A stretch of DNA of 11,003 nucleotides, taken from positions 1 through 11,003 of the forward strand of contig JABUEV010000039.1 of assembly GCA_013314865.1 (NCBI GenBank). Reading direction: 5' to 3'. The notes below the pieces were generated by a model. It saw nothing but the letters and a program-made list of their open reading frames with translations. It did no database searches and was not told the DNA's origin. This DNA is from Bacteroidales bacterium (GTDB taxonomy: Bacteria; Bacteroidota; Bacteroidia; Bacteroidales; VadinHA17). Below, piece after piece: positions 299 to 10,734 of this stretch; the first letter of the stretch is position 1; each line of letters opens with the position of its first letter. Both the position numbers and the translations under genes were made by a program.

Positions 299-2284
299 AT
301 GGATCAGGCATTTATCAGGAAACTCACTGAAATTGTCATCGCTAATCTTACCAATGAAGCCTTCGGAGTCAAGCAGTTGGCTAAGAAAGCAGGCATGAGC
401 CATGCAAGCCTGCATCGCAGATTGAAGTCCATAAAAAACCAGAATGTTTCCCAGTTTATCCGGGAAATAAGGCTGCAGAAGGCGATGGAGCTTTTACACC
501 AGAATGCAGGAACTGTTTCTGAGATAGCCTTTATGGTCGGATTTAGAAGTCCTGCCTACTTTATTAAATGCTTTCATGAATATTATGGTTTTTCTCCGGG
601 TGAAGTCAAAAAAACAGACCTGATCCAAACAGAGTTTAAGAACGGTATTGATGATAATGGATCATCAACTTCAGAACAGGTACAGGTAATACAAATATCA
701 GGACCATCCGGTCGGATGAAATTAAGCTATCGGATTGCTGCATTAACAGGATTATTTGTAATTATTTTATTTCCACTCACCTGGTTTTTGAATAACTTAC
801 TCATTAAACAGCATAATGTTCCTGGACTTACAGAAAATGATAAATCAATTGTTGTTCTGCCATTTAAAAACCTCACTGATAATCCTGATAATCAATATAT
901 TGCTGACGGCATCATGGAAGATGTTCTTAATGACCTGTATCAGGTAAGCGACTTAAGGTTGATATCACGTACCACATCAGAACACTTCCGGGAAACCGGC
1001 TTCACATCATGGGAAATTGCCCGGGAGGTAAATGCGAATTATGTACTCGAAGGTAGCGTCCGACGGTATGGCAACAAGATCAGGATCAGCGTTCATCTAA
1101 TAGATGCTTACCACGACCAGTATCTCTGGTCAGCAAATTTTGACCGGGATATTACCGATATAATTGGTGTTCAGAGTAATATTGCCATGCAGATTGCCCT
1201 GAAGCTAAAAGCTGAAATTTCCGAAAGTGAAATCTATCAAATTGAGGATATTCCAACAAAAAATCCTGAAGCTTATGATTATTACCTGAAAGGCAAATTT
1301 TTATTTAACAAAGCCACAAATGAACAACGGGTTGACAACAGCAAAGAGTGGATTAATGGCAGCATTCAATATTTTGAAAAGGCAATATCTGTGGATAAGT
1401 ATTTTACAGAAGCCTATGCAGGTCTGGCTAACTCCTGGTTTACTTTATCAGACTGGGGCTGGTATCAACCATATCTTGAAGGTATCCAGAAAGCCAGAGA
1501 ATATAGTATGAAGGCGCTGGAGATAGATCCCGATTGTGCTGAAGCTCACTTTGTTAAAGGGTCTTTTCTTATATGGCCCGAGCGAAAGTGGGAGGAAGGA
1601 CGTAAAGAGCTGGAGATTTCCATTCAGCTGAATCCAAATAATACCTACGCATATCAGGCTTTTATTCAGTTACTTATGATAACCGGACCCATTGAAGAGG
1701 CCCGTCTGTTCATGGACCGCGCCATTGAGCTTGAACCCTTTAACTGGGTTTTACACAACCTGAATGCATGGATATATTATTTCGAAGACAGACATAAGGA
1801 ATCGCTGGAGGCTTGCAGCATTGCCAGCGAACTTAATGATGATTATATTTTAAATAACTGGCTATTTTTTCTGAACTATGCAAAACTGGATGAAGGGATA
1901 AATGCTGCGGAAGAACTTCAAAAAATAATAAGGATTGAAACAAGATCCAGCCAATATGATACGGAGATAATGGATATATACAATAAGTCGGGTATTAAAG
2001 GACTTTTTACCTGGCTGATCGATATAAATATTAATAAACCAATTCCTGCTGTGGGTTTGATCGGTCAGCCATTTTTTATAGCCTGGTGGAACGCAATCCT
2101 GGGTAACAAGGAGAAATCAATTTACTGGCTGGGAAGGAATATGGAATCACAATCGGGAAACTATACATTTTTTAATCTGATTGCCACAAATCCCGATTTT
2201 GATATTCTGAGAAGTGATCCCCGGTTTCTGGCAATTATTGAAGAAATAGGGCTTACCCAATACAATACCAGAAAAGCTAAATAG
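299..2284 (+). CDS. transmembrane AraC-type regulator with TolB-like and TPR sensor region
   Basis: The 661-residue protein opens with an AraC-type double helix-turn-helix (about residues 5-104). The second helix-turn-helix lies in GTVSEIAFMVGFRSPAYF and is followed by FHEYYGFSPGEV. A polar linker leads to one membrane helix (about 145-168). Residues about 182-305 form the TolB-like/FlgO-like domain that often accompanies bacterial adenylate cyclases and winged-helix regulators, with SIVVLPFKNLTDNP, then YVLEGSVRR and LWSANFDR. Several TPR-like helical hairpins follow (about 325-520), then a helical C-terminus. Inferred topology: DNA-binding head in the cytoplasm, TolB/TPR part in the periplasm, so a one-component membrane regulator in the style of CadC or ToxR. 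The ATG at 299 sits just behind a good promoter. The targets are unknown; the secreted protein gene downstream is one candidate. Family assignment is firm, signal and targets are inference. Confidence 0.85.
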   Translation: MDQAFIRKLTEIVIANLTNEAFGVKQLAKKAGMSHASLHRRLKSIKNQNVSQFIREIRLQKAMELLHQNAGTVSEIAFMVGFRSPAYFIKCFHEYYGFSPGEVKKTDLIQTEFKNGIDDNGSSTSEQVQVIQISGPSGRMKLSYRIAALTGLFVIILFPLTWFLNNLLIKQHNVPGLTENDKSIVVLPFKNLTDNPDNQYIADGIMEDVLNDLYQVSDLRLISRTTSEHFRETGFTSWEIAREVNANYVLEGSVRRYGNKIRISVHLIDAYHDQYLWSANFDRDITDIIGVQSNIAMQIALKLKAEISESEIYQIEDIPTKNPEAYDYYLKGKFLFNKATNEQRVDNSKEWINGSIQYFEKAISVDKYFTEAYAGLANSWFTLSDWGWYQPYLEGIQKAREYSMKALEIDPDCAEAHFVKGSFLIWPERKWEEGRKELEISIQLNPNNTYAYQAFIQLLMITGPIEEARLFMDRAIELEPFNWVLHNLNAWIYYFEDRHKESLEACSIASELNDDYILNNWLFFLNYAKLDEGINAAEELQKIIRIETRSSQYDTEIMDIYNKSGIKGLFTWLIDININKPIPAVGLIGQPFFIAWWNAILGNKEKSIYWLGRNMESQSGNYTFFNLIATNPDFDILRSDPRFLAIIEEIGLTQYNTRKAK

Positions 2285-2348
2285 AATTTACCGGATCCCT
2301 GCCTCTTACCACTTAAGAATCCAAGGTTGGTTTCTTTAACCTCAAAGA

Positions 2349-2394
2349 TTCAACAAATTTAGATTTTAGTAAGTTGTTGAAATAGAATCTAAAT
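2349..2394 (+). promoter_or_regulatory. two interleaved inverted repeats
   Basis: TTCAACAA (2349-2356) pairs with TTGTTGAA (2374-2381). ATTTAGATT (2357-2365) pairs with AATCTAAAT (2386-2394). The arms interleave (left 1, left 2, right 1, right 2), so in RNA they would be alternative stems or a pseudoknot, and in DNA two overlapping dyads. The element lies 65 bp after the regulator's stop codon and about 115 bp before the next gene. It could act in the leader or 3' end of either transcript, or as a binding site. No known riboswitch class is recognised. Confidence 0.4.
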
Positions 2395-2509
2395 ACTTGC
2401 GAAAAAATTTATCAAATCTGCAACATAATTGCTATGTATACCCCTGTTTTAATACTAACTTATTAAATAGGAATTAAGGTTTCTATTGTTTAACCAAAAT
2501 ACATGAATT

Positions 2510-2947
2510 ATGAAAACAAAGGCATTTTTATTATCATTCATTTTTTTATGTATCGGGTTGATGAAGCTTTCTGCTCAATCGGTGTCTTCAGATCTTAACA
2601 GATCATTCTCATATGATATTGAATGGGGATGGTATACTCCCGTATATTGCCAAGGGATTGAGATCGATAATTTATCAGCTGAATTAACTTGGCATATTAC
2701 GACTCACTATAAAGATGGAATCTGGCAATGGGATATTATGGAGGTCCATGGCACAGCCACAAGTAGCTCTGGTGAAGTCTTTAAAGTAAAAGAAAAAGAT
2801 AAAATTGCAGGGCCACAAAAATCGATAGCGGAATTATATACCTGGCATTACAATCTTATTGGAGACAGAGGCAGCCATTACATCGGCTATATGACATGGA
2901 ATTTTGTTACTGGGGAATTTACTGTTGAAAAAACAGTATGTAAATAG
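2510..2947 (+). CDS. small secreted Trp-rich protein of unknown function
   Basis: The product has 145 residues and no family is recognised. It begins with a clear Sec signal peptide (Lys at 2 and 4, hydrophobic stretch about 5-19), with likely cleavage after Ala-Gln near residues 22-23. The mature part is rich in Trp and Tyr (Trp at 39, 41, 61, 72, 74, 102 and 110) and alternates polar and hydrophobic residues, which suggests a small beta-sheet protein. Two cysteines remain after processing (47 and 144), so a disulfide in the periplasm or outside the cell is possible. The ATG at 2510 is chosen because it starts the signal peptide directly; the ATG at 2498-2500 is in another frame. A strong terminator follows 37 bp after the stop, so this is probably a single-gene unit or the end of one. 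Confidence 0.7.
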   Translation: MKTKAFLLSFIFLCIGLMKLSAQSVSSDLNRSFSYDIEWGWYTPVYCQGIEIDNLSAELTWHITTHYKDGIWQWDIMEVHGTATSSSGEVFKVKEKDKIAGPQKSIAELYTWHYNLIGDRGSHYIGYMTWNFVTGEFTVEKTVCK

Positions 2948-2984
2948 TAATTTAAGTAATCTAAAACAAGCAATACAACAAGCT

Positions 2985-3016
2985 AAGCCCCCGGAATCAG
3001 CTTCGGGGGCTTTTTT
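2985..3016 (+). terminator. intrinsic terminator after the secreted protein gene
   Basis: AAGCCCCCG at 2985-2993 pairs with CGGGGGCTT at 3004-3012. A G-T and an A-T pair extend the stem, leaving a six-base loop. The sequence runs into TTTTTT at 3011-3016. GC-rich stem plus U-run is a textbook Rho-independent terminator for the + strand gene ending at 2947. Confidence 0.92.
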
Positions 3017-3146
3017 GTGAAATCCTCGAACTTTTACTTTTTGAAAAAATAAGTTCCTATTTGAGTCTGGGAGATGGCTGCTTAAACCGGTTGCCATGAC
3101 CACATTCCGCCATAAAGATGCCTTCTTCATATTTATCAATAATTCA

Positions 3147-3458
3147 TTAGGTTAACTCCGGCCTGAGGTATTCAATTTTTACCGGCAAGAAGTGGCAAGA
3201 GTCACCTATTTTTCCAAGAATATTATAAACTGCCTTTTTCAGGAGGTTATCTTTTCTCCTGGTTATTTTCCGATATTCACCAGGTGATATCCCTGGTTTT
3301 GATTTAAAGAACCTCACGAAATTACTCTCATGAATTTGACTTAAACTGAATAAAATTTCAGAAATACTGAAAGAAGTCTGTTTTAAAAGTACCTTGGATT
3401 CCAGCATCCGTATATCAAAAGTCTGATAATCATTTCCTTCCTTGCCATCGAAACCCAA
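3147..3458 (-). pseudogene. truncated AraC-type DNA-binding domain
   Basis: The readable product is about 103 residues. Residues about 18-63 match the second half of an AraC-family helix-turn-helix domain, with RMLESKVLLKQTSFSISEI followed by NFVRFFKSKPGISPGEYRK. The first helix-turn-helix and any sensor region are missing. The only start near the 5' end is a TTG at 3458, and an in-frame TAG lies seven codons upstream (TAG AAA CAC AGT ATC TTT CAT then TTG). The normal upstream AraC sequence therefore cannot be read in this frame. About 40 residues of no recognised family follow the domain. It is most likely the 3' remnant of a regulator gene that once faced the divergent sugar genes. A short functional half-domain protein cannot be excluded, but with only one helix-turn-helix and a TTG start it is less likely. 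Confidence 0.55.
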
Positions 3459-3491
3459 TTTATGAAAGATACTGTGTTTCTAAACAGAATT

Positions 3492-3540
3492 CTTTATCAG
3501 TAAATTCCCTATTGATAAAGGAATTTGAAATTTTGATAAA
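3492..3540. promoter_or_regulatory. TGATAAA inverted/direct repeats, candidate operator
   Basis: CTTTATCA (3492-3499) and TGATAAAG (3513-3520) form a perfect 8-bp inverted repeat with 13 bp between the arms. A third TGATAAA lies at 3534-3540. They sit in the divergent region between the AraC fragment and the twin-arginine TIM-barrel gene, just upstream of that gene's -7 box. This is a plausible operator cluster for the sugar genes. The binding protein is unknown. Confidence 0.4.
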
Positions 3541-3561
3541 AATTATGTAGCAATCTTTATT

Positions 3562-3569
3562 TAACTTTG
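3562..3569 (+). promoter_or_regulatory. -7 promoter box of the deglycosidase genes
   Basis: TAACTTTG fits the Bacteroidota -7 consensus TAnnTTTG and is identical to the box at 260-267. No good -33 TTTG lies at the usual spacing; the nearest TTTG (3532-3535) is 26 bp upstream. A weak -33 element would suit a promoter that needs an activator. The leader would be about 55 nt. Confidence 0.4.
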
Positions 3570-3630
3570 ATTATTAACTGAACAAAGCGTTCAAAAAAAT
3601 CTACATTGAAATCATAAATTCCTCTTTACA

Positions 3631-4650
3631 ATGAAAAACAAATCAACATTCTCAAGACGGGGTTTTATAACAAGTGCTGCAGCAGGGGCAGCTGCAATTG
3701 CGACAATCCCGTCTTCGGGCTTAATTGCATCCAGTTGTGCAGGACCGACTGCTTCTCCGGAAGCAAAGCCTCGTTTGATACCGAAACCGCAATTTAACGG
3801 TAAACCCAAACGCGGCGTCTCTCTTTACAGCTATACCGGCGTTTTTGGAGTAACCATGACAATGGAAGATTGTTTCATTGACATTAATGATATGGAGGCG
3901 GAAGGCATAGAGATTCTTGCGAACGGCCATATCCCCAATTATCCCGATCCATCTGAGGAATGGGTTGACTGGTGGTTCAGTATGCTGAATAAGTATAATC
4001 TTGTGCCTGCTGAATATGGTCACTGGGTTGATTCACGACGGCAGGCAGGTCGGACTCTGACTTCAAAGGAATCTTTTGATATGATTGTCCGGGACATTAA
4101 GCTGGCACACAAGCTTGGATTTAAAGTCGGGCGCACCAAACTTGGTGTTATCGATGAAACGCTGACACCTGTTGAAAACTGGAAGGAATTCATTAAAATG
4201 GCATTGCCGGTTGCAGAAGAAAATGATTTTGTAATGTGCCCTGAAATCCATATGCCTACAGTGCTGAAATCAAAAATGGTTGATGACTACGTCGATTTTA
4301 TTGTTAAGACCGGAACCAGGAATTTCGGATTAAATATCGATTTCGGTGTTTTTTCTACTAAAGTGCCGAATATTCCGGGCATGGATCAGTTTAAACCCAG
4401 CCAACCTGAGGATATAATACCTCTTCTGCCTTACGTTCATGCTTGTCATGCAAAGTTTGGTAATATGTCAGATGATCTTATCGAAACAACACATCCATAT
4501 CCCGAAATAATAAAAATACTGGTTGACCATAAATGGGAAGGATACCTGCTTAGTGAATACGAAGGGCCGGGAATGAATGAGCCAGAGTATGCATCTGACC
4601 AGGTAAGAAGACAGCACGTTATGCTTAAACGTCTGTTAGGCGAAGCATAA
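3631..4650 (+). CDS. Tat-exported TIM-barrel protein, putative C-glycoside deglycosidase alpha subunit
   Basis: The 339-residue product begins with a twin-arginine signal: SRRGFI at 8-13, then an Ala-rich hydrophobic stretch (about 15-27) and Cys36. Cys36 might be a lipidation site, but the lipobox (IASSC) is imperfect. From about residue 60 it is a sugar-phosphate isomerase/epimerase (xylose-isomerase-like) TIM barrel. Likely metal ligands are Glu205 and His207 in CPEIH, Asp237 in NIDFG, His273 in HAKFG and Glu309 in LLSEYEG. The next gene encodes a small protein resembling the beta subunit of C-glycoside deglycosidases. Characterised enzymes (DgpBC, DfgAB, CarBC) pair such a barrel with such a small subunit to cleave the C-C bond of 3-oxo-C-glycosides. 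The fold is secure; the reaction is inferred from the pairing. The native substrate could be another 3-oxo glycoside. The export signal implies a periplasmic site. Confidence 0.72.
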   Translation: MKNKSTFSRRGFITSAAAGAAAIATIPSSGLIASSCAGPTASPEAKPRLIPKPQFNGKPKRGVSLYSYTGVFGVTMTMEDCFIDINDMEAEGIEILANGHIPNYPDPSEEWVDWWFSMLNKYNLVPAEYGHWVDSRRQAGRTLTSKESFDMIVRDIKLAHKLGFKVGRTKLGVIDETLTPVENWKEFIKMALPVAEENDFVMCPEIHMPTVLKSKMVDDYVDFIVKTGTRNFGLNIDFGVFSTKVPNIPGMDQFKPSQPEDIIPLLPYVHACHAKFGNMSDDLIETTHPYPEIIKILVDHKWEGYLLSEYEGPGMNEPEYASDQVRRQHVMLKRLLGEA

Positions 4651-4705
4651 TACAGATGTTTTTTGAGTTTTAAATGAATTGAAAAACAAACAAACTTTTA
4701 ATAAA

Positions 4706-5116
4706 ATGCTTGAATTTCCAAATATACAGTCAAGAGGATTCCGTAATATTAAAGAAGGAAATAATATTATCGGCTTCCAGGTGCCTGTCAGACTTACCTA
4801 CTACAGGGGAGTGTGGCTTCCTCAATTAAGGCCTGCAACCGTTTCAGTGGACGGGGAAAAGTTCGAGGGCGACCAGATTACCTGGGTAATAGATGGCAAA
4901 AGTTACGCACAGTCTGATCTTCAAAATTACCCGGATGTTCACTGGAGCAGTCTTACACCCGCAATTCTGCAAATAAAGAAACCCGGCGGATTAGCTCTGG
5001 GCATCCATGATGTTGAGGTAAGTATTGTTTTCAGTACATCCTATCTGCCGCCAAGAATTGATTTGGGATTTGGAGGGGAAGAACCGTATAAAAGGAGGAT
5101 GACGCTGGTCAGATAG
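4706..5116 (+). CDS. putative C-glycoside deglycosidase beta subunit (DUF6379-like)
   Basis: The product has 136 residues, no signal peptide and a predicted all-beta composition. The N-terminal RNIKEGNNIIGFQVPVRL (13-30) followed by YYRG (32-35), a short VSVDGEKF (46-53), KKPGGLALGIHDVEV (91-105) and a closing RRMTLVR resemble the small subunit of C-glycoside deglycosidases (DfgB/CarC-type, DUF6379), recognised from memory of the family. In that complex the beta subunit assembles with the TIM-barrel alpha subunit, here encoded 55 bp upstream on the same strand. The ATG at 4706 is chosen because homologues begin close to the conserved RN motif. A TTG at 4679 would add nine residues (beginning MKNKQTF), curiously like the start of the alpha subunit (MKNKSTF). 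No terminator is obvious after the gene. Confidence 0.68.
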   Translation: MLEFPNIQSRGFRNIKEGNNIIGFQVPVRLTYYRGVWLPQLRPATVSVDGEKFEGDQITWVIDGKSYAQSDLQNYPDVHWSSLTPAILQIKKPGGLALGIHDVEVSIVFSTSYLPPRIDLGFGGEEPYKRRMTLVR

Positions 5117-5536: not shown

Positions 5537-5995
5537 ATGGCAAACACTTACACGCAAATTCACATTCAGGTGGTTTTCTCAGTGCAGAACCGCTATTGTC
5601 TTATTTCAGACAAATGGAAAGATGAACTATATCAGTATATTACTGGTATAGTCAGGAATAATAACCATAAGCTTTTAGCTATCAATGGGATGCCTGATCA
5701 TATACATATCTTGATAGGACTCCGGCCTTCTCAGTCTGTTTCGGATCTTATGCAGGATATAAAAGGAGATTCGTCAAAATGGATAAATGAAAAAAGATAT
5801 ATCAATGGTAGATTTTCCTGGCAGGAAGGATATGGTGCATTCTCATATAGTCGATCTGATATTTCAAAGGTAATTCAATACATTAATGATCAGTTAATAC
5901 ATCATAGAATGAAGGATTTTGACCAGGAATATCAGGATTTGCTGGATGAATTTGGTATAGAATATGACGAAAGATATCTATTTAAAAAGGTTTAA
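5537..5995 (+). CDS. IS200/RAYT-like HUH single-tyrosine transposase
   Basis: The 152-residue product is a Y1 transposase of the IS200/IS605 TnpA superfamily, at full length for the family. The metal-binding HUH motif is His55-Ile56-His57 in GMPDHIHILI. The catalytic tyrosine is Tyr115 in the helix VIQYINDQ, with Gln119 four residues later in the place of the third metal ligand of IS608 TnpA. The conserved FSWQEGYGAFSYS (93-105) and the terminal GIEYDERYLF are typical of this clade in Bacteroidota. Such enzymes cut and join single-stranded DNA at hairpin-adjacent sites. No TnpB gene is present. A repeat array of GC-rich palindromes begins 61 bp after the stop, which points to a REP-associated (RAYT) role rather than a simple insertion sequence. 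The protein appears intact. The ATG at 5537 starts the conserved MANTYTQIHIQVVF. Confidence 0.85.
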   Translation: MANTYTQIHIQVVFSVQNRYCLISDKWKDELYQYITGIVRNNNHKLLAINGMPDHIHILIGLRPSQSVSDLMQDIKGDSSKWINEKRYINGRFSWQEGYGAFSYSRSDISKVIQYINDQLIHHRMKDFDQEYQDLLDEFGIEYDERYLFKKV

Positions 5996-6056
5996 AATCC
6001 TGTACCAAAGAGATCCAGTATGGACAGAAACAGATTCCCAAATTAATTTGTTTTCC

Positions 6057-6204
6057 GGTCCCGTAGGGACCAGATATCTGTAGAAACCCCGTATCCCAAA
6101 AAAACATCATCGTCCCGTAGGGACGAAATATTCCGTACCTGACGGCACGGCCTACGATTTGCACATATCCGTTTTACCGATATCTTGTCCCTGACGGGAC
6201 AGGT
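6057..6204. repeat. palindromic repeat unit 1 (REP/BIME-like)
   Basis: This 148-bp unit begins with hairpin A (GGTCCCGTAGGGACC) and runs through hairpin B (CGTCCCGTAGGGACG) and hairpin C (CCGTACCTGACGGCACGG). It ends in hairpin D (TGTCCCTGACGGGACA) plus GGT. It is the copy nearest the transposase and somewhat diverged: the inner arms ATATCTGTAGAA and TTTTACCGATAT pair with two mismatches. Only eight bases separate it from unit 2. Confidence 0.9.
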
Positions 6205-6212
6205 TGATGGAT

Positions 6213-6360
6213 GGTCCCGTAGGGACCAGATATTGGTAGAAAACCCGCATCCCTAAAAAACATCATCGTCCCGCAGGGACGAAATATTCCGTGCCTGACG
6301 GCACGGCTCACGATTTGCGCATATCCATTCTACCGATATGTTGTCCCTGACGGGACAGGT
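6213..6360. repeat. palindromic repeat unit 2 (REP/BIME-like)
   Basis: Same A-B-C-D hairpin order and 148-bp length as unit 1. Hairpin B has a loop change (CGTCCCGCAGGGACG). Hairpin C is the perfectly paired form CCGTGCCTGACGGCACGG. The inner arms ATATTGGTAGAA and TTCTACCGATAT pair with a single G-T type change. A 31-bp spacer follows. Confidence 0.9.
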
Positions 6361-6391
6361 TAATGGCCAATGATTGAATTTTTCATTTCCC

Positions 6392-6540
6392 GGTCCCGTA
6401 GGGACCAGATATCGGTAGAAACCCCGTATCCCCAAAAAAACATAATCGTCCCATAGGGACGAAATATTCCGTACCTGACGGCACGGCCCACGGTTTGCGC
6501 ATATCCATCCTACCGATATGTTGTCCCTGACGGGACAGGT
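6392..6540. repeat. palindromic repeat unit 3 (REP/BIME-like)
   Basis: A 149-bp copy. Hairpin B carries CGTCCCATAGGGACG, again a change confined to the loop. Inner arms are ATATCGGTAGAA and TCCTACCGATAT. The 31-bp spacers before and after share TGATTG followed by an AT-rich run and TTTCC, so the repeating period here is about 180 bp, including the spacer. Confidence 0.9.
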
Positions 6541-6571
6541 CGACAACCTATGATTGCATTTTTCCTTTTCC

Positions 6572-6720
6572 GGTCCCGTAGGGACCAGATATCGGTAGAA
6601 ACCCCGTATCCCCAAAAAAACATAATCGTCCCGTAGGGACGAAATATTCCTTGCCTGACGGTACGGCCTACAAATTAGGCATTTCCGTTCTACCGATATG
6701 TTGTCCCTGACGGGACAGGT
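6572..6720. repeat. palindromic repeat unit 4 (REP/BIME-like)
   Basis: A 149-bp copy with perfect outer symmetry: ATATCGGTAGAA (6589-6600) is the exact reverse complement of TTCTACCGATAT (6688-6699). Hairpin B is at 6627-6641, C at 6649-6666 (CCTTGCCTGACGGTACGG, two weakened pairs) and D at 6702-6717. The stretch between C and the right inner arm is the most diverged of the four units. Confidence 0.9.
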
Positions 6721-6764
6721 TCCGTACCTGACGGCACGGTTAACGGTTTGTGCAAATCCATTCT
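6720..6764. repeat. truncated repeat unit 5
   Basis: After unit 4 the sequence restarts inside a unit at TTCCG and contains hairpin C (CCGTACCTGACGGCACGG). It follows the unit up to ATCCATTCT, where similarity stops just before the right inner arm and hairpin D. It is therefore an internal fragment lacking A, B and D. It marks the right edge of the array. Confidence 0.75.
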
Positions 6765-6800
6765 GATTTCTCCATCAATCCTGGCTTCAACCCTGACAAA

Positions 6801-6833
6801 AATCCTGATTTTCGGAATTTAAAAGTTGCAACC
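6801..6833. repeat. short dispersed repeat, copy 2
   Basis: Counterpart of 3-34: GATTTTC, four variable bases, TTTAAAAGTTG, C, AACC. It lies just right of the palindromic array, in a 195-bp stretch (6765-6959) without a gene that otherwise holds only the terminator at 6898-6933. Confidence 0.4.
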
Positions 6834-6897
6834 CCTTACCTGGAAATTGGTGAACATCTCATCCTTTAAATTAGTGCTGATTTCAGAAGGTCATAAT

Positions 6898-6933
6898 AAG
6901 AAACAAGAGATCGGTTTTGACCTCTTGTTTCTT
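6898..6933 (-). terminator. hairpin terminator of the sigma factor operon
   Basis: AAGAAACAAGAG (6898-6909) is the exact reverse complement of CTCTTGTTTCTT (6922-6933). One mismatch and two further pairs extend the stem inside. On the - strand it lies 26 bp after the stop of the membrane protein gene, and a T-rich tract follows the stem. It could also stop + strand transcripts leaving the repeat array, where TTTCTTTCTTT follows. Confidence 0.75.
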
Positions 6934-10626: not shown

Positions 10627-10700
10627 GGGGCCTCCTCCGTTAAAACTGCGGAGGACAAAGTGTAAGTCTTCCACCTTCGCTAAAGCTTCGGTGGACGATG
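10627..10700. repeat. two diverged tandem hairpin repeats
   Basis: Hairpin 1 (about 10632-10653) pairs CCTCCG with CGGAGG and is followed by ACAAAGTG. Hairpin 2 (about 10670-10693) pairs CCACC with GGTGG, has a TTC/TTC internal loop and an inner GCT-aa-AGC stem, and is followed by ACGATGTG. The two look like copies of one palindromic element type, distinct from the array at 6057-6764. A third GACAAAGTG lies at 10583-10591. Confidence 0.45.
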
Positions 10701-10705
10701 TGAGG

Positions 10706-10734
10706 AAAAAGAGCGAGTGTGCTCGCTCTTTTTT
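10706..10734. terminator. bidirectional intrinsic terminator
   Basis: GAGCGAG (10711-10717) pairs with CTCGCTC (10722-10728) around a TGTG loop. A-run on the left (10706-10710) and T-run on the right (10729-10734) make it work in both directions. On the - strand it lies directly after the stop at 10739 of the discoidin-type gene. On the + strand it can stop transcripts from the CPBP/DUF6624 operon. Confidence 0.88.

Follow-up and report, generated by a model that had tools for sequence, protein, structure and literature searches.

The question raised by this locus is whether a small transposase and the palindromic repeats that lie directly after its gene belong to one repeat-spreading system. 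The locus is part of a stretch of 11,003 nucleotides (hereafter the window) from contig JABUEV010000039.1 of a Bacteroidales bacterium (assembly GCA_013314865.1, VadinHA17 lineage), and consists of an intact gene for a Y1 transposase of the HUH type and a tandem array of hairpin-bearing units. Among the small repeats common in bacterial genomes are repetitive extragenic palindromic (REP) sequences, whose spread is attributed to REP-associated transposases (RAYTs). We consider, with a probability of roughly two in three, that the locus represents a system resembling such enzyme-repeat pairs (REPtrons), which is built on a transposase of TnpA_Y1 subclass 1.2, has a tag geometry of its own and spreads REPIN-like modules in trans.

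The transposase and its downstream array

The features of the locus are as follows.

5537..5995, forward strand: intact Y1 (HUH) transposase gene, 152 amino acids, with TnpA_Y1 subclass 1.2 motifs (DHIH, WQ, Y---Q--HH)
6057..6204, forward strand: REPIN-like unit 1, with hairpins H1 6057-6071, H2 6110-6126, H3 6133-6150 (imperfect) and H4 6186-6201
6213..6360, forward strand: REPIN-like unit 2, with hairpins H1 6213-6227, H2 6266-6282, H3 6289-6306 and H4 6342-6357
6392..6540, forward strand: REPIN-like unit 3, with hairpins H1 6392-6406, H2 6446-6462, H3 6469-6486 (imperfect) and H4 6522-6537
6572..6720, forward strand: REPIN-like unit 4, with hairpins H1 6572-6586, H2 6626-6642, H3 6649-6666 (degraded) and H4 6702-6717
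6720..6764, forward strand: unit fragment, with an H3-like hairpin (6722-6739) and part of the next spacer
6401..6418, forward strand: diagnostic stem-tail motif GGGACNNNATNTYGGTAG; also at 6222-6239 and 6581-6598 (forward strand) and at 6330-6347, 6510-6527 and 6690-6707 (reverse strand)

The Pfam family Y1_Tnp matched the open reading frame (ORF) at 5537-5995 with 103 bits (E = 1.3e-29). The four residues on which the sequence-only reading had based an intact enzyme (His55, His57, Tyr115 and Gln119) were confirmed by this match and by the motif residues D54-H55-I-H57, W95-Q96, Y115, Q119 and H122-H123. The protein passed the IS200 model NF033573 (76 bits, cut-off 55) and fell far below the cut-off of the NCBIfam REP_Tyr model (40.4 bits, cut-off 80); among aligned members of its clade, the IS200 model was matched by 26 of 26 and the REP-Tyr model by 24 of 26 (E<=0.001). 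When both sequence and fold were compared, the TnpA proteins of ISDra2 and IS608 ranked first. The E. coli RAYT-REP complex 4er8 was placed at fold rank 30 with a root-mean-square deviation of 2.6 A, compared to 5.4-15.7 A for ranks 1-29; this low value could come from a cis active-site helix in the monomer model and was given no weight.

By its WQ and Y---Q--HH motifs the protein is assigned, provisionally, to TnpA_Y1 subclass 1.2. These positions are conserved across 109 clade members (the glutamine after tryptophan in 107, the tyrosine and the second glutamine in 108 each, and the two histidines in 105 and 108). The filing rests on motifs because a FastTree phylogeny with six references did not cleanly separate the clade, the best reference-free split holding 96 of the 109 members (support 0.70). 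The RAYT/IS200 placement that the sequence-only reading had looked to was obtained from the motifs, but not from the tree.

Between the end of the stop codon (5995) and the start of the first hairpin (6057) lies a gap of 61 bp. The array (6057-6764) was found to consist of four units of ~148 bp and a fragment, as first described from the sequence, with start-to-start distances of 156, 179 and 180 and a pairwise identity of 89-93%. Each unit has four GC-rich hairpins, as had also been claimed, the third being imperfect in units 1, 3 and 4, and is made of two inverted half-units joined at AATATT. The order of a half-unit is hairpin H1, ATATYGGTAGAA, a spacer and hairpin H2. The unit reads H1 (GGTCCC-gta-GGGACC), AGATATCGGTAGAA, a spacer of ~25 nt, H2 (CGTCCC-gta-GGGACG), AAATATT and the mirror half, in which H3 is of the CCGTGCC/GGCACGG type and H4 is TGTCCC/GGGACA. 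As single-stranded DNA, one unit was predicted to fold at -32.4 kcal/mol compared to -17.0 +/- 2.8 for shuffled sequences (z = -5.6; none of 200 shuffles equal), while a half-unit gave z = -3.7 (1 of 200 shuffles equally good). A sub-threshold hit in the window to the Rfam family Acido-Lenti-1 (E = 0.9) was dismissed as chance, and no tRNA genes were found in the window.

Hairpins at the borders of related genes

Relatives of the transposase (E<=1e-10) were found in 162 of 295 genomes of the order, and the relatives from named genomes studied here are the best 80 of 567 confirmed. By name these 80 are mostly from Bacteroidota; two are from Ignavibacteria (L095, L139) and two from Verrucomicrobia (L146, L152), while one is labelled Methylococcaceae (L086) and one Nitrospira (L119), all six being metagenome assemblies. 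A scan of viral contigs gave no relative, leaving a link to phages unsupported.

The density of hairpins with a stem of at least 6 bp was 2.05 per kb up to 400 bp from the gene, compared to 0.21 per kb beyond 1.5 kb. On inspection, the borders were found to have a common build, in which H1 is followed by three nucleotides, ATNT, one nucleotide, GGTAG, a spacer and H2 near the ATG, with the mirror image after the stop codon. A strict search recovered 70 such half-units in 36 of 96 loci, with a loop-to-loop distance of 44-54 nt; those within 100 bp of the gene were 17 forward and 0 reversed upstream, and 13 reversed and 4 forward downstream.

A tagged hairpin (a stem with its GGTAG tag) was present within 400 bp in 37 of 74 upstream flanks, 46 of 79 downstream flanks and on both sides in 23 of 73 of the best 80 relatives, compared to 13 of 777 control windows more than 1.5 kb away and 4 of 765 shuffled flanks. 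At least one was seen at 60 of the 80 loci. The distance from the 5-bp stem to the tag was exactly 8 nt in 123 of 145 tagged hairpins. By a looser rule, a forward orientation was seen for the nearest tag in 29 of 39 upstream cases and a reversed one in 32 of 46 downstream cases. When the test was instead anchored on the tag and made blind to hairpins, a perfect 5-bp stem was found at the fixed place for 124 of 167 tags within 500 bp and for 0 of 53 tags beyond 1.5 kb; a shift of one base towards the tag gave 18 stems, and four other shifts gave none. The stems at this position show 17 different arm sequences, all perfectly paired, and stem variation is therefore compensatory.

The feature was not shared by the other types of Y1 gene compared. 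Tagged hairpins were present in 34 of 56 flanks and at 26 of 29 loci of those genes of the order that best match the clade of the window, compared to 0 of 34 flanks for IS200-type Y1 genes from that order (n = 17; these control flanks begin 60 bp outside the domain match, the nearest 60 bp being left out), and at none of the six reference genes, two of which are Bacteroidota plasmid relatives. Protein distance was weakly correlated with stem distance (r = 0.24, P = 0.014) and with tail distance (r = 0.25, P = 0.008; loci with the feature, 82 of 106). Paralogs within one genome (G138, G069 and G140) were found to carry different stems on the same plan, and several private enzyme-repeat pairs may therefore coexist in a cell. 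Close relatives of the window protein (L021, L024 and L030; 61-73% identical) have GTCCC/GGTAG hairpins at their borders.

Two further observations were made at such loci. In G140 (L281-L284, for example L281 371-386), single CGTCCC hairpins were seen that have a GGTAG tag on either side and resemble published 'double foot' REPs, and in a Salinimicrobium locus (L117, 4001-4661) the upstream border and the gene start are duplicated inside the gene region.

Hairpins at gene borders could also be host or RNA elements (terminators, mRNA stabilisers or gene autoregulators) with no role as a DNA substrate. In favour of this, H2 is often placed 8-30 bp ahead of the ATG and could influence translation from there, and the hairpins are extragenic. 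This explanation is nevertheless highly improbable, as it accounts neither for the inverted copies downstream, nor for the gene-free dispersed palindromes, nor for the fixed GGTAG tag; in addition, no Rfam family reached its gathering score in the nine loci searched.

Dispersed copies, movement and proposed mechanism

A search of the 295 genomes with the stem-tail motif gave 387 copies in 27 genomes, compared to 9 for a reversed control pattern. The motif is amplified in one species (G144), where 197 copies accompany a single Y1_Tnp match, and is absent from two congeners (100% and 65% complete), which have 0 copies. Paired copies are inverted, with tags starting 106-172 bp apart, and similarity between copies mostly ends at the outer hairpins, some G144 copies sharing further flanking sequence. 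Only 2 of 62 sites fell inside ORFs of at least 110 amino acids, compared to an ORF cover of 72% (18 stretches from three genomes, G144, G069 and G138). The transposase clade was present in 22 of the 27 genomes with repeats and in 140 of the 268 others (Fisher P = 0.0026, a statistic that ignores phylogeny); clade-bearing genomes hold 369 of the 387 copies, and the clade is found in 13 of the 15 genomes with at least 4 copies. Another module array, with a period near 475 bp, was seen in G144 (contig C67, L307 ~2236-4325).

The genome of the window itself (3.08 Mb, 591 contigs, 89% complete) presents a different picture. Searches with the unit and with a stem pattern having a 4-nt loop gave nothing convincing outside the array. 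A pattern of a stem with a 3-4-nt loop and ATNT gave 13 sites, namely 12 in the array and one on contig C558 (reversed-pattern control, 0). The C558 site (5546-5565, reverse strand; L011 1501-1520) reads GTCCC-gta-GGGAC, three nucleotides and ATAT, with TGTAT in place of GGTAG, and is probably a decayed H1 copy with a degenerate tag. A second, distant Y1 gene lies on contig C467 (L002 1489-1920) and has W-A rather than W-Q, but retains YIRDQEAHH; no tagged hairpin was noticed beside it by eye (no script scan was made), and locus L019, also read by eye, showed no tail. In 58 same-genus genomes searched with the flanks of the array, matches to both sides on one contig occurred in the window's own genome alone, once matches through a second repeat (described below) were set aside. 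The repeat spreading proposed by the sequence-only reading is supported by dispersal in several genomes; in the window's own genome, with the array and one decayed-looking site, it is unproven.

Several observations weigh against a dedicated enzyme-repeat pair. No tagged hairpin or half-unit was found upstream of the window's gene, which makes its layout atypical; its fragmented genome has only the C558 site outside the array; and no empty site was demonstrated, none being seen when the window flanks were searched in the 58 same-genus genomes. By the rule used, a tagged hairpin within 400 bp is missing at 20 of the 80 relatives, and also at two relatives on Bacteroidota plasmids (L252 and L253, one of them 52% identical). 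The association of repeats with the enzyme counted GTCCC stems only and is uncorrected for phylogeny. Among 12 genomes tested, repeats occur without any Y1_Tnp match in G188 (11 copies), G270 (4), G031 (1) and G234 (1), as well as in the same-genus G335 (two arrays) and the same-family G369; G031 and G234 are 99% complete, the other four 83-93% complete in 210-370 contigs. In G138, which has 37 GTCCC-type copies, GTCCC hairpins were found at 0 of 5 Y1 loci examined out of seven Y1_Tnp matches. Repeats abundant in genomes lacking the clade, which the first reading would have taken as evidence against it, were thus seen in part: 5 of the 27 repeat genomes lack the clade, but they hold 18 of the 387 copies. 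Copy numbers in assemblies are unsure because some repeats end contigs, as in G335, whose two arrays (L278 28-638 and L279 1983-2672; module 76-79% identical) both lie at contig ends.

Some of these points would fit a chance adjacency in the window, the repeats belonging to another, absent Y1 transposase of the same clade: the gene has no upstream half-unit, no Y1 gene was found in the congener G335, which has arrays of the same module, and none of the five Y1 flanks looked at in G138 fits the repeats of that genome. We regard this as improbable, given a distance of 61 bp in a genome with only one other, decayed-looking site, and given the GTCCC/GGTAG border hairpins of the relatives that are 61-73% identical.

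The form that bears the gene raises a separate difficulty. Genome G047 has two gene copies encoding 96% identical protein, with 681 bp in common; the shared stretch begins ~22 bp before the upstream H1, ends ~40 bp after the downstream H1' and gives way to different sequence on either side. This also counts against the preferred reading and strengthens another, in which the half-units are the termini of a selfish insertion sequence resembling IS200, the gene-free modules are internally deleted derivatives resembling miniature inverted-repeat transposable elements, the array is a tandem pile-up and no domestication has occurred. Consistent with this, the pair of half-units that forms the gene-free module often encloses the gene as well, a gene pair in G230 is 90% identical, and L078 and L079, from different assemblies, are 91% identical over the gene and near borders only. 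Against it, six of the eight genomes compared for paralogs have only copies that are 44-74% identical (21 genes), the other two being those with a pair at 90-96%; synteny extends well past the borders between species (L113/L115/L141, L134/L154 and L138/L150); the ratio of non-synonymous to synonymous substitutions (dN/dS) was 0.05-0.16 in 10 of 11 chosen pairs (one pair gave no value), indicating strong purifying selection; and G144 has 197 modules with one gene. We therefore hold an insertion sequence to be possible but rather unlikely. From the duplicates and the syntenic loci together, it follows that the gene-bearing form is capable of movement, although some loci stay put, and the low dN/dS and partial synteny suggest that the transposase may have been domesticated. 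Conventional IS200 ends inside the repeats, the other outcome that would have told against the sequence-only reading, were not seen in the relatives viewed, where the hairpins are the immediate gene borders; the near-identical gene-plus-border pair of G047 is, however, like an insertion sequence.

In the preferred reading, that of a REPtron-like system, the transposase would recognise single-stranded hairpins with a fixed tail (5-bp stem, 3 nt, ATNT, one nucleotide, GGTAG), and its HUH/Tyr115 chemistry would cut and rejoin DNA at or near them. The module mobilised would be the symmetrical REPIN-like palindrome H1-tail-spacer-H2-AATATT-H2'-spacer-tail-H1', spreading in trans to extragenic sites. 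In many relatives the gene lies between two half-units, and this gene-bearing form may at times be mobile too. The window's gene may have lost, or never had, its upstream half-unit, and the tandem array downstream probably arose by recombination or slippage. Use of the lagging strand, described in published accounts of IS200/IS605 members, may be expected by likeness. As these accounts place guide sequences 5' of the palindrome foot, the ATNT that precedes the foot on the strand reading CTACC-N-ATNT-NNN-hairpin is, by analogy, a candidate guide sequence.

Beyond the array, the window holds a second dispersed repeat unrelated to it (6776-6928; ~110-150 bp, 77-84% identical), which matches loci of the same-genus genomes G318, G323, G315, G345, G294 and G313, and a terminator-like inverted repeat (6898-6933). 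Two further GC hairpins, CCTCCG...CGGAGG and CCACC...GGTGG, were seen by eye in an intergenic region at ~10630-10715. A sugar isomerase-like TIM-barrel gene followed by a gene for a C-glycoside deglycosidase beta subunit occupies 3631-5116.

Comparison with known systems

In the relevant passages of the published classification (Quentin et al. 2018, PMC6006769), TnpA_Y1 subclass 1.2 is described by a median length of 148 amino acids, DH[IV]H, WQ and Y---Q--HH motifs, occurrence in Bacteroidetes and low copy number, which the window protein resembles in length (152 amino acids) and in all three motifs (DHIH, WQ, Y---Q--HH). The subclass is listed there as 'no' for REP and as generally lacking IS200-type hairpins, yet tagged hairpins stand at 60 of 80 relatives here; the absence of REP is a reported trait of the subclass and not a sequence criterion. 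As outlined there, the search for REPs covered TnpA_REP-encoding genomes and asked for stems of 7-20 bp preceded on their 5' side, at 0-2 nt, by GTAG or GTGG. A stem below that length whose tag follows 8 nt away on the 3' side falls outside that pattern, which may explain how the repeats were missed, if they were missed. No report of these repeats for subclass 1.2 was found among the titles and starts of abstracts listed (preprints on bioRxiv and most subscription papers being outside the scope), and a literature search with four stem-loop strings gave no match.

As far as published descriptions go, the locus shares with REP/RAYT REPtrons, REPINs and bacterial interspersed mosaic elements (TnpA_REP subclasses 2.2, 2.4, 2.5 and others; PMC6006769, PMC8266576, PMC3733652) a Y1 HUH enzyme beside palindromes (extragenic and dispersed in the relatives' genomes G144, G069 and G138), inverted pairs, tandem clusters and few gene copies. 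By the same descriptions, their enzymes have Y---NP, compared to Y---Q--HH here, and canonical REPs have a stem of at least 7 bp with GTAG or GTGG 0-2 nt away on its 5' side, compared to GGTAG 8 nt 3' of a 5-bp (often 5-7 bp) stem here; viewed on the other strand, the tag is CTACC on the 5' side. Each half-unit has two hairpins, unlike a canonical REP as described. A canonical E. coli-type RAYT was ruled out by the Y---Q motif, the REP_Tyr score and the position of the tag. What stands of the REPtron-like link drawn by the sequence-only reading is therefore the hairpins of one geometry flanking relatives and their extragenic dispersal in several genomes, but not an E. coli-type enzyme or a canonical tag.

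With IS200/IS605 elements (IS608, ISDra2), the locus and its relatives share the catalytic core and fold, subterminal hairpins and the near-identical gene-plus-border pair of G047. They differ in that the borders are inverted, have two hairpins each and lie close to the gene with little room for tnpB, and in that paralogs are divergent in most genomes compared; a scan of ten proteins of the window gave no tnpB. According to published excerpts, subclass 2.6 TnpA_REP of Bacteroidetes, the same phylum, has 'atypical secondary structures' on its flanks, of which the genome holds further copies, but it has a YIH[QN]NP motif and belongs to another class; the two are set apart here by description only. 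This also applies to the CGTC-tagged REPs, short palindromes with G. forsetii among their carriers, for which the paper describing them (PMC3733652) reports no dedicated transposase. There, CGTC stands unpaired at the end of a stem of 8-9 bp whose loop has 4-5 nt, whereas here CGTC, where present, lies within the stem and the tag is GGTAG.

Taken with these differences, the results slightly favour a separate origin of a REP/REPIN-type system, from a class-1 lineage (IS200-like, Y---Q) and not from RAYTs, with a palindrome superfamily of its own that has a fixed 8-nt 3' tag and paired hairpins and is found in Bacteroidota and into assemblies of Ignavibacteria and Verrucomicrobia (L139, L146 and L152). 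A Y1 subgroup listed in the published classification as lacking REP has border hairpins of strict geometry and up to ~200 dispersed copies per genome. If this reading is right, enzymes that spread repeats evolved from IS200-type transposases on more than one occasion, the function of the subgroup becomes directly testable in vitro, and a candidate enzyme and a simple pattern to search with are at hand for a class of Bacteroidota palindromes.
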